44,472 nt of DNA, taken from Planctomycetaceae bacterium. Lineage in GTDB: Bacteria; Planctomycetota; Planctomycetia; Planctomycetales; Planctomycetaceae. Below, one piece after another: positions 25,874 through 28,698 of this stretch (positions are counted from its first letter, which is position 1; every line of letters begins with the position of its first letter). The stretch covers positions 1 to 44,472 of the forward strand of contig JABURQ010000110.1 of the NCBI GenBank assembly GCA_014762625.1. The letters run 5' to 3'. The notes beneath the pieces were generated by a model that was not told the DNA's origin, made no database searches, and saw nothing but the letters and a program-made list of their open reading frames with translations. The position numbers and the translations under genes are program-made.

Positions 25874-26836
25874 CTAGTGTGAGGGAGTGAGGAGTTCGAG
25901 GATTTGTGAGTGGGAGGTGACTAACCGGTCCGGTTTCAACCGTTCTCGTTTGAGGTCGGCCGAGGTGGCCCTGAGCGACAATCGGTCGAATGCCAGCAAA
26001 GCGGTCTTCCATCCGCGTTGTTTGGCAAATTCGAGATCCCCCTTCAGTCGCGTCGAAACAACAAACACCTGATCGGGTCGAATGCCTCGTTTCGAGAACT
26101 GTTTCTCTGCTGTTTTATAAAAAGTTTGAGACGATTTGCGAAGCCCGAGCGAGTGAGAGAGTACGCACAAGGAAGAATCCAGAACCTCAGGCGAAAACGG
26201 CTTTCCTGTTTGTCGTTGAGCCGTCCAGCAAAAATGTGGGATCGAGAACCGCTCGGTCTCACCGAAAATCGCTTGACGCACTCCCGTTCGGTGCAACGCA
26301 TCCAGGGTTTTCAGAACTTCTGGGATAATCTCAACCCCTTGAAGGGAAAGATGATAGAAAAAACCGATGTGCTGAGCCAGACGGTCCCGATCGCCGTGAA
26401 TCGAACGGTCCCAACCATAGTCTTTCTTCAACAGACGTTCGAGAATCTTGGACCAGATCTGATGCAGACCAATCTGTGGAAGATCTCCCTTGGCACAACT
26501 TTGAGTCATTTGCAGACGGTCCAGCAGCTCACGATACTGGCTCATCAAATATCGCCACGGTGCTCCCGGTTTGCGGGTCATGCTTTGCCACATCGCAAAC
26601 TCTTCCAGCGTCTTCTCCAGGGCAATCTGCATCCGTAAGTCGTCATCAACGAAGAGCTTCAGCTCACCATCGCTGATGCGTACCAGCGTCCCGTAAAAAT
26701 CCCACAACACGACTTCAATACCGGGGATCGGTTGCAGGCTGCTCTGAGCCGGGACGGATTCAAGAGGTGGCGGCTGCGGCCATTTGAGCGGTTTTTCGTG
26801 CAGCCAGTCAAAATATTCGGGCCAGGTCGATGACAT
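25874..26836 (-). CDS. HAD-superfamily hydrolase
   Basis: The 320-residue protein has HAD motif I as VVLWDFYGTLV (about 43-53), in which Asp47 is the nucleophile and the usual second Asp is Tyr, as in some HAD branches. Motif III/IV appear in DQVFVVSTRLKGDLEFAKQRGWKTALLAFDR near 263-293, where the usual acidic pair GDxxxND/DD is replaced by STRLKGDLE. A large helical cap (about 60-200) lies between. The enzyme is expected to be a cytoplasmic phosphatase of the dehalogenase-like branch; substrate unknown. It heads the leftward FabZ-like/trmB run and is divergent from the leuA leader. Confidence 0.75.
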   Translation of the reverse strand: MSSTWPEYFDWLHEKPLKWPQPPPLESVPAQSSLQPIPGIEVVLWDFYGTLVRISDGELKLFVDDDLRMQIALEKTLEEFAMWQSMTRKPGAPWRYLMSQYRELLDRLQMTQSCAKGDLPQIGLHQIWSKILERLLKKDYGWDRSIHGDRDRLAQHIGFFYHLSLQGVEIIPEVLKTLDALHRTGVRQAIFGETERFSIPHFCWTAQRQTGKPFSPEVLDSSLCVLSHSLGLRKSSQTFYKTAEKQFSKRGIRPDQVFVVSTRLKGDLEFAKQRGWKTALLAFDRLSLRATSADLKRERLKPDRLVTSHSQILELLTPSH

Positions 26837-26898: not shown

Positions 26899-26927
26899 TT
26901 GACCCACACCGAACCCAGCGTTAAATT
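26899..26927 (+). promoter_or_regulatory. Predicted sigma-70 promoter of the leuA unit
   Basis: TTGACC (26899-26904) and TAAATT (26922-26927) are separated by exactly 17 nt. Transcription would start near 26934, about 21 nt before the leader peptide, which is the compact geometry expected of an attenuator. Confidence 0.65.
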
Positions 26928-26954
26928 TACTGTCTCAGCCCTTGAGTCTCAATT

Positions 26955-27017
26955 ATGCAATACCTCAATCTCCTTAGCCTCCTTCTACCGGGCCTGCTTC
27001 TTTGCGGGGGAGCTTAG
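26955..27017 (+). CDS. leuL: Leucine-rich leader peptide of the leuA attenuator
   Basis: A 20-codon open frame, ATG to TAG, encodes MQYLNLLSLLL followed by PGLLLCGGA. Nine of its 20 residues are leucine, in runs at positions 4, 6-7, 9-11 and 14-16, using CTC, CTT, CTA and CTG codons. It sits about 21 nt after a predicted promoter and 122 nt before leuA. Its stop codon lies inside the antiterminator arm CTTAGGGT (27013-27020). The ribosome site is weak (GAG about 8 nt upstream). By analogy with enterobacterial leuL it would sense charged tRNA-Leu: stalling at leucine codons would let the antiterminator form. The name is by function, not by sequence similarity. Confidence 0.8.
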   Translation: MQYLNLLSLLLPGLLLCGGA

Positions 27018-27089
27018 GGTTTGCACTGAGATCATTCATCACGAATCATCAGCACCCTGAGGTCTCTCATCAGACTTCAGGGTTTTTTT
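27013..27089 (+). promoter_or_regulatory. Attenuator: mutually exclusive antiterminator and terminator before leuA
   Basis: Terminator: CCCTGAGGTCT (27055-27065) pairs with AGACTTCAGGG (27072-27082), one G-U, 6-nt loop, followed by seven T (27083-27089). Antiterminator: CTTAGGGT (27013-27020) can pair with ACCCTGAG (27054-27061), 8 bp with one G-U, which removes the left half of the terminator stem. A ribosome at the leader stop codon (27015-27017) would cover the antiterminator arm; one stalled on earlier leucine codons would leave it free. The terminator lies 50 nt before the leuA ATG. Confidence 0.85.
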
Positions 27090-27138
27090 ATGAATTCACG
27101 TTTCAAACTTTATTCGCGTTAGAACTTAGGTCGCCACG

Positions 27139-28698
27139 ATGTCCACCAACAACGATACCTTGATCATTTTCGACACGACGCTTCGCGACGGGGAGCAATC
27201 TCCCGGTTGCAGCATGAATACCGACGAGAAGATTGAAGTCGCCAAAGCGCTCGTGGAACTCGGGGTCGATATCATCGAAGCGGGATTCCCGATCGCGTCC
27301 CCCGGCGATTTTGAAGCGGTGCAGCGAATCGCCCGCGAATGCGGCGCGCAATCCACGATTTGCGGTCTGGCTCGAAGTCGCAAAGACGACATCGATCGGG
27401 CTCGCGACGCGCTGGTCGATGCCGAGAAAAAACGGATCCACGTCTTCCTGGCCACCAGTTCGATTCACCGCGAACATAAGCTGGGGATGGATAAGGAACA
27501 GATCGTCAACACCGCCGTCGAAATGGTGTCACGGGCCAAAGAATACTGCGACGATATCGAATTCTCCCCGGAAGACGCCGCTCGGACCGAGTTGGATTTC
27601 CTGTGTGAAGTGGTTGAAAAGACGATTGCCGCCGGAGCAACCACCGTCAATATCCCCGACACTGTCGGCTATGCGACCCCGTCGCATTACTACCACGTCA
27701 TCTCCACACTCAAAAAAGAAGTTCCCAACATCGATCAGGCCATCATCAGCACGCACTGCCATAACGATCTGGGACTCGCCGTCGCCAATAGTCTCGCCGC
27801 CGTCGAAGCGGGAGCCCGCCAAGTCGAATGTACCATCAACGGCCTGGGAGAACGGGCCGGGAATGCGGCGTTGGAGGAAATCGTGATGGCGTTGCGGACG
27901 CGTCACGACTACTACGGCATCAATACCAACATCAACACCCAGCGTCTGTATCCGGTCAGCCATCTGGTTTCCCGCATCACGGGCATGAAAGTCCAACGGA
28001 ACAAGGCGATCGTCGGGCAAAACGCATTCGCTCACGAAGCTGGCATCCATCAGCACGGGATGCTCAAGGAACGGACCACTTACGAAATCATGCGTCCGCA
28101 GGACATCGGTCTCACCGGCACCAACCTCGTACTGGGAAAGCATAGCGGACGACACGCCTTCCGCGATCGCGTCGAACAGCTCGGATACAACATGGACGCA
28201 GATACGTTCCAGAAAGTGTTTGAAGCGTTCATCGTACTCGCCGACAAGAAAAAAGAGGTTTTCGACTCCGACATCACGGCCCTCATCGAATCCCAGAAAA
28301 TTGATTTCGAGGAGCATTGGAAACTCAACAATTTTCACACTTCCGCGGGAACCGGCATGATCCCGACCGCTACCGTGGAATTGCAACATGACAAAGACGA
28401 ACCGGTCTCCGACGCCGCCACGGGAGACGGTCCGGTCGATGCCGCCTTTAAGGCCATCGAGCGAATCGTGGGGATCGAAGCGCGTCTGGAAGATTACGAT
28501 GTGCGGAGCATCTCCAGCGGAAAAGACGCTCAGGGGGAAGTGCTGGTGCAGATCGATTATCTCGGTCGTAAATACCACGGCCGAGCCGTCAGTACCGACA
28601 TCATCGAAGCCTCAACCCGAGCCTATTTACACGCCATCAATCGCGCCTGGTCCGATCGCGGATCCCAAACTCCCGAGAAAGAGAAAGCCAACCTGTAG
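27139..28698 (+). CDS. leuA: 2-isopropylmalate synthase
   Basis: LeuA condenses acetyl-CoA with 2-oxoisovalerate, the first committed step to leucine. The 519-residue protein has the DRE-TIM barrel signature [13 protein letters not shown] at 11-23, then [34 protein letters not shown] with the metal-binding Hx[21 protein letters not shown], the linker with [15 protein letters not shown], and a C-terminal regulatory domain (about 390-519) that in the family binds leucine for feedback inhibition. So the enzyme is probably controlled by leucine twice: allosterically and through the upstream attenuator. TTAGG lies about 10 nt before the ATG. It is followed at 27 nt by a redoxin-like gene. Confidence 0.97.

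Follow-up and report, generated by a model that had tools for sequence, protein, structure and literature searches.

The leuA locus and its leader region

The DNA analysed, referred to here as the window, is a stretch of 44,472 nucleotides from a Planctomycetaceae bacterium (GCA_014762625.1, contig JABURQ010000110.1). It carries leuA, the gene for 2-isopropylmalate synthase, which is recognised by several NCBIfam models above their cut-offs, including TIGR00973 (749 bits against a cut-off of 599) and NF002086. The neighbour on the 5' side is a divergent long frame on the minus strand (25874-26836), and the gap of 302 nt between it and leuA is occupied by a sigma70-like promoter, a short leucine-rich frame, a segment that overlaps the end of this frame, and an intrinsic terminator (Table 1).

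Table 1. Parts of the predicted attenuator upstream of leuA, with positions in the window.
Feature	Positions	Strand	Description	Basis
Sigma70-like promoter	26899-26927	+	-35 TTGACC at 26899-26904, 17-nt spacer, -10 TAAATT at 26922-26927	Mechanical scan, comparison with relatives
Leader peptide frame, MQYLNLLSLLLPGLLLCGGA and stop	26955-27017	+	20 codons, nine Leu codons between 26964 and 27002	ATG start, TAG stop; Leu richness kept in relatives
Possible leader hairpin	26994-27008	+	CCTGC 26994-26998 with GCGGG 27004-27008; piece of a larger ribosome-free leader fold	Relatives (weak)
Antiterminator arm	27008-27020	+	Core CTTAGGGT 27013-27020, extension 27008-27011	Constrained folds, swap tests
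Strand common to antiterminator and terminator	27054-27066	+	27054-27061 and 27063-27066 in the antiterminator; 27054-27065 as terminator 5' arm	Scan, folds, alignment A1
Intrinsic terminator	27054-27089	+	12-pair stem 27054-27083, loop of 6, T-run of seven 27083-27089	Scan; covariation in 40 family sequences
leuA, 2-isopropylmalate synthase, presumed regulated gene	27139-28698	+	ATG at 27139	NCBIfam models

The leader stop codon (TAG, 27015-27017) lies inside the arm CTTAGGGT, which is complementary to ACCCTGAG (27054-27061) over eight pairs, one of them G-U. The T-run ends 49 nt before the ATG of leuA, and the leader stop lies 121 nt from the gene. These parts are those named in the original prediction: the promoter pair with 17-nt spacing and the terminator stem with seven T ahead of leuA were both recovered by a mechanical scan, the 20-codon frame with nine leucines ending at 27017 reads as described, and the arm at 27013-27020 overlaps the stop and is able to pair with 27054-27061, a pairing that also forms in folds with a stalled ribosome.

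Scanned as a single sequence, the whole window holds two terminator-like sites where 2.4 are expected and two promoter-like sites where 1.0 is expected; neither scan is above chance, so conservation must decide, and the reality of both parts rests on comparison with relatives. In two congeners the -35 element is identical to that of the window and the -10 element differs by one base, and among 55 representative leaders of the family a promoter match of at least 9 of 12 positions, mostly with TTGAC and a 17-nt spacer, precedes the leader in 32, against 2.0 expected from base shuffles; transcription of the leader thus probably begins at a promoter of its own. The mechanical scan of the window found no second promoter-like site on the plus strand between the terminator and leuA. 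Shine-Dalgarno-like motifs precede only 11 of the 55 representative leaders.

Conservation of the leader in the family and beyond

A search for leuA succeeded in 55 of 59 relatives and, within the family, in 151 of 170 genomes. Of the 151 leuA-bearing family genomes, 34 were sampled first, 23 loci were added and 80 of the remaining 94 were fetched, the fourteen left out being seven that nearly duplicate genera already sampled, six whose leuA is incomplete and one without a listed place. This gave 137 family loci including that of the window; one of them (L153, with 65 nt upstream) was dropped from the test for leucine-rich frames, which needs at least 200 nt, leaving 136. A sample of the phylum held leuA in only 14 of 59 genomes, 11 of these outside the family.

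A random frame lying between an unrelated terminator and leuA would be compatible with single-sequence scans that do not exceed expectation. Conservation of the frame in orthologues, which such an accident would not produce, was found: a frame with at least five leucines in nine codons is present on the sense strand in 123 of the 136 upstream regions from the family, counting that of the window, and on the antisense strand in one, whereas five sets of dinucleotide shuffles yielded 4-10 and no other amino acid exceeded 5. With six leucines in nine codons the counts are 95 sense, 0 antisense and 0-1 in shuffles. Together with the swap tests described below, these figures leave the chance explanation a practically negligible probability.

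A leader (at least four leucines in nine codons) followed by a terminator with a T-rich tail occurs at 129 of the 137 family loci. Among the eight loci where the pair was not called, L153 is short, L115 is cut by a contig end and L194 lacks sequence (N), whilst L029 and L234 have frames that are, judged by eye, poorer in leucine. At two of the 137 loci (L206 and L227) no leader was found within about 650 nt of the gene. At L019 (G016:C27) the leader, at -573 to -510 from leuA, and its terminator are both intact, and a small gene, which may code for a four-helix bundle protein, is inserted between the attenuator and leuA. Named neighbours place the group: L035 and L036, at 92% identity in leuA, carry the labels Planctomycetota and Planctomycetaceae, and L038, labelled Pirellulaceae, also carries a leader.

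The frame extends to other families of the class, where 16 of 21 loci passed the five-of-nine test on the sense strand and none on the antisense strand (five loci fail), and to the rest of the phylum, where the counts were 6 of 11 sense and 1 antisense (5 loci fail). Under a looser terminator rule, leader and terminator were found together at 16 of 21 loci in the other families, two of them doubtful, and at 4 of 11 elsewhere in the phylum. One leader outside the class (L249) has the same stop-in-arm design as that of the window. A covariance model of the first of the two layouts described below, run on 59 genomes, gave, for 29 of 37 family genomes, its best match directly 5' of leuA; many of these sequences, the window's included, had gone into building the model and match by construction.

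A leader could also act at the level of translation, either by reinitiation or by masking the ribosome-binding site of leuA, with no termination of transcription involved. Short leader genes very near structural genes occur in excess in several groups, Planctomycetes among them, and reinitiation has been proposed for them (PMC4833913, in the portion available). The peaks reported there lie at 10-16 nt, far short of the 121 nt between leader stop and leuA in the window, where moreover a U run intervenes and ends 49 nt before the gene, and a hairpin with a T-rich tail accompanies the leader at 129 of the 137 family loci. The loci that best suit this explanation are four from one other family of the class (L127, L129, L132 and L136), at which the leader stop is only 75-113 nt before leuA and the last hairpin has no good U run. 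Control of this kind is very unlikely.

The leaders of these four loci are leucine-rich and the hairpin stands near leuA, and they are possibly a translational or Rho-dependent variant.

Leader composition and codon choice

The 55 representative leaders contain 367 leucine codons against 66 for isoleucine, valine, phenylalanine and methionine together, which argues that leucine itself is selected, rather than hydrophobicity. Compared with its two congeners, the window retains a frame that looks constrained at the coding level: of its nine leucine codons the first is lost, four show synonymous changes and the other four are the same. Such constraint, and the resemblance of short leucine-rich peptides to transmembrane segments, would also be expected of a functional small hydrophobic (membrane) peptide that precedes leuA by chance, the hairpin being its own terminator. 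The rarity with which other hydrophobic residues replace leucine speaks against a membrane peptide, as do the variable leader length (13 to 24 codons in the 55 representatives), the choice of leucine codons, and the terminator-complementary stretch that 125 of 129 loci have where the leader ends; we regard this explanation as highly improbable.

CTA makes up 73 of the 367 leucine codons (20%) in the 55 leaders and 6 of 1796 (0.3%) in 53 leuA genes, a difference of about 60 times. It accounts for 35 of 1112 leucine codons in a set of 27 long frames from the window, leuA among them, and for 0.8-1.6% in the leuC, ilvB, cimA and trpE genes of the family. CTT is raised 2.7-fold in the leaders. In the window, the leader uses CTT four times, CTC three times, and CTA and CTG once each, whilst the 33 leucine codons of leuA include one CTT and no CTA.

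For E. coli, CUA has been predicted to serve best as a control codon for leucine, and the leu attenuator of S. typhimurium contains three CUA codons whose replacement by CUG lowers its sensitivity (both from the accessible part of PMC1183508). The heavy use of CTA in the planctomycete leaders matches what selective tRNA charging theory proposed for E. coli in that work, and the CTA and CTT codons are probably the most starvation-sensitive sensors of the leader.

In leaders with a TAG stop, leucine is common nine codons ahead of the stop (codon -9, 32 of 35) and rare over the final four codons (2-3 of 35). In those with a TGA stop it is common at codons -3 to -6 (10-12 of 15) and rare over the final two.

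Alternative pairing of the antiterminator and terminator

Two layouts are found in the family. In the first, to which the window belongs, leaders are about 20 codons long and finish in residues such as GRS or GGA; their stop codon, in most cases TAG, falls within the arm, whose consensus is AGGTCTTAGG. In the second, leaders are about 15 codons long, the stop is mostly TGA, and the arm (CCTCAGG, for example) begins a few bases 3' of it. At 125 of 129 loci, the segment most complementary to the terminator 5' arm overlaps the interval from -12 to +16 around the leader stop, compared with 37% for base-shuffled segments.

Whether the two halves of the antiterminator belong together can be read from their exchange between loci. 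Each locus's own pair of arm and terminator is more stable than swapped pairs, with none of 2000 permutations as good across the 129 loci and none of 5000 across 74 representatives of 150 loci in the family, the class and the phylum (L122 and L133, with doubtful terminators, among them). The result recurs in each subset of these representatives, the permutations as good numbering, out of 5000, 3 for the first layout (33 loci), 1 for the second (22) and 2 for other families and groups (19). The permutations take partial account of relatedness between loci.

The original prediction had proposed looking for compensatory changes in both stems, and the outcome differs between them. In alignment A1, which comprises 40 family sequences of the first layout, the terminator shows two-sided changes in 8 of 12 pairs (a count as high in 2 of 500 shuffles), and its covariation score was reached by none of the 500. 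For the antiterminator, the match between the halves is borne out by the swaps and not by column covariation in A1, where it does not rise above the shuffles: the score was reached by 77 of 500 and five measures by 63 to 128 of 500. Its columns are 89% paired, and both sides are nearly fixed there.

The arm had also been tied to the position of the stop codon. Its overlap with the stop region stands, with the refinement that the point where the leucine run ends predicts the arm's position no less well than the stop does. Across the 74 representatives, the start of the arm correlates with the last leucine codon (Spearman 0.71, partly built in because both are measured from the stop), at a median distance of 13 nt with quartiles of 9 and 17, and the distance from arm to last leucine codon varies less (SD 7.8) than that from arm to stop (10.9). 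The element offers over a hundred natural variants in which the gap from the last leucine codon to the arm is much alike.

A leader hairpin of the kind that would act as an anti-antiterminator (1:2), allowing termination when the leader is untranslated, was considered as a further conserved part. In relatives it was matched or bettered in 188 of 5000 permutations for 40 leaders with TAG or TAA stops and in 1748 of 5000 for 15 leaders with TGA stops, support too small for it to be counted as a firm component.

Between the arm and the terminator of the window, positions 27021-27053 can form a hairpin of their own in the folds; its inner ATTC/GAAT pairing is kept in the two congeners, and its outer CTGA/TCAG pairing is not fully kept.

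Predicted mechanism of attenuation

The observed anatomy, conservation, alternative pairing, spacing and codon bias all point to control of leuA by ribosome-mediated transcription attenuation with leucyl-tRNA as the signal, the reading given in the original prediction and strengthened by the recurrence of leader, arm and terminator at 129 of the 137 family loci, with each locus's own antiterminator halves matching better than swapped ones. The outcome named there as refuting, orthologous leaders that lack a leucine-rich frame or whose stems do not co-vary, was looked for and the comparison did not refute the prediction. On this comparative sequence evidence, we consider the prediction very probably correct.

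RNA polymerase would start a few bases past the -10 box, near 26934, and a ribosome would follow on the 20-codon leader. With ample leucyl-tRNA, the ribosome would reach the stop codon and cover the arm at 27013-27020, so that the terminator stem could form and transcription would end in the U run. With leucyl-tRNA scarce, the ribosome would wait on a leucine codon with its leading edge short of the arm, and the free arm would pair with 27054-27066, blocking the terminator and allowing leuA to be transcribed.

The geometry of the window suits these steps. The reach of the ribosome downstream of a stop codon has been taken as 12 nt (PMC4833913, available part), and in our folds the ribosome was represented by a mask that starts from the first base of its A-site codon and reaches 12 nt further. 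Placed on the last leucine codon (27000), the mask ends at 27012, one base short of the arm core; placed at the stop, it covers the arm. With the ribosome stalled at 26985 or 27000 (leucine codons 11 and 16 of the leader) the masked nascent RNA folds into the antiterminator, and with the ribosome at the stop it forms none, whilst in the absence of a ribosome the leader pairs with itself and the arm is hidden. With the leader complete and the ribosome stalled, the minimum-energy fold is still the terminator, so the switch would need kinetic trapping; this preference at equilibrium is what a kinetic switch should show and is not proof of one.

Leaders at other biosynthetic genes

Attenuation of this kind may extend to cimA, the citramalate synthase gene. 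In the window's own genome, cimA (G000:C83, 41001-42545, minus strand; L335/L003) has an isoleucine-rich frame, MNRNNIVIIDILVGIIVPSETVRL, about 540-620 nt upstream, followed by a terminator. The covariance model finds the leuA element in this genome with an E-value of 4.7e-16, and its next match (E 0.003) lies upstream of cimA. Within the family, at least five isoleucines in nine codons occur upstream of cimA at 18 of 35 loci and never on the antisense strand, the next residue being arginine with 6 and 2; with four of nine the counts are 24 against 4 antisense. In other families of the class 4 of 35 loci carry such a frame against 1 antisense, which is no clear excess. From these sequences the cimA leader is likely an isoleucine attenuator.

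Other genes of amino acid synthesis gave little sign of leaders. Upstream of leuC no leucine leader was found at any of 20 loci in relatives, on either strand. For ilvB, six isoleucine, leucine or valine codons in nine were found at 3 of 23 loci in relatives (0 antisense; one of the 23 without upstream sequence) and not in the window's own genome, and for trpE two tryptophans in nine were found at 7 of 23 loci in relatives, against 5 antisense, and again not in the own genome. We judge it moderately probable that Planctomycetia use attenuation by coupled translation to control branched-chain synthesis at its paralogous entry enzymes, with leucine codons before leuA throughout the class and isoleucine codons before cimA at least in the window's family, and no convincing leader at ilvB, leuC or trpE.

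Spatial separation of transcription and translation has been proposed for some planctomycetes. Attenuation needs a ribosome close behind the RNA polymerase, and the leaders would therefore imply transcription-translation coupling in planctomycetes. The element would offer a ready reporter both of leucine starvation and of such coupling in these bacteria.

Relation to known regulatory systems

A T-box (tRNA-binding) element or a metabolite riboswitch ending in the same terminator would occupy the same position and follow the same terminator and antiterminator logic. Rfam includes both Leu leader and T-box families. Neither the window nor any of 14 related loci matched an Rfam family at its gathering score, and the nine matches in the window at E of at most 10 are unrelated, none being a Leu leader or T-box; moreover, the leucine-rich frame fills much of the space from promoter to terminator. 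We give a tRNA-binding or metabolite-binding RNA an exceedingly small probability, and compare the element below with known attenuators.

Ribosome-mediated attenuation is established for the leu operons of enterobacteria, and in E. coli and Salmonella a leucine leader frame, an antiterminator and a terminator precede leuA. The planctomycete element has the same parts in the same place. It has more leucine codons than the E. coli leader, and the placement of its stop codon differs, lying inside or just before the antiterminator arm. It also differs in matching no Rfam model and in that leuC lies on another contig of the window's own genome and is without a leucine leader (0 of 20 upstream regions). 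The use of CUA as control codon is common to both (PMC1183508, accessible part).

Leucine-related leaders are also described in other phyla. The LEU element of Actinobacteria shares the short leader frame before leuA; it is a conserved pseudoknot in which the other attenuator elements are missing, whereas the planctomycete loci have a conserved terminator and an alternative antiterminator, and mutation tests in Streptomyces were inconsistent with classical attenuation (PMC1262725, as far as its available text goes). The ilv-leu attenuator of Staphylococcus aureus resembles the present element in its leucine-rich peptide and terminator, and its control by leucine is backed by mutants; it belongs to another phylum and stands before ilvD of an ilv-leu operon (PMC5794164, available sections). 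The uORF motifs ilvB-II and ilvB-OMG likewise contain frames rich in branched-chain codons, with a terminator and antiterminator proposed for ilvB-II (PMC10272879, in the part accessible). These motifs target ilvB, whereas the planctomycete ilvB upstream regions gave three weak matches at 23 loci, none in the own genome.

A 2010 account (PMC2965389, accessible text) stated that leader peptide systems other than the ermC leader had been demonstrated in Proteobacteria and Actinobacteria alone, and added Firmicutes. Branched-chain uORFs have been predicted ahead of ilvB in Leptospira and in a range of phyla (PMC10272879, same part), and the main text of PMC8632094 and PMC11109978, in the portions available, names no planctomycetes. 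The literature searched, which took in few subscription papers, contained no planctomycete leucine attenuator or citramalate synthase leader, and a mention may exist in the comparative survey of Lopatovskaya et al. (2010, Mol. Biol. 44:128; cited in PMC4833913). The mechanism is thus a known one and the group in which it is found is apparently new. A leucine attenuator across much of the planctomycete class would make the mechanism more widespread than reported.

Acquisition of the element together with leuA from its nearest homologues outside the phylum was also considered. Leucine-rich frames were found in 6 of 73 upstream regions of these homologues, against 5 on the antisense strand, and such a transfer is thus not supported.

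As a separate observation, three leuA loci of Sedimenticola (L097, L100 and L110) have leucine-rich frames of about 20 codons that end in PCGA and precede the gene, and these three leaders may be real.
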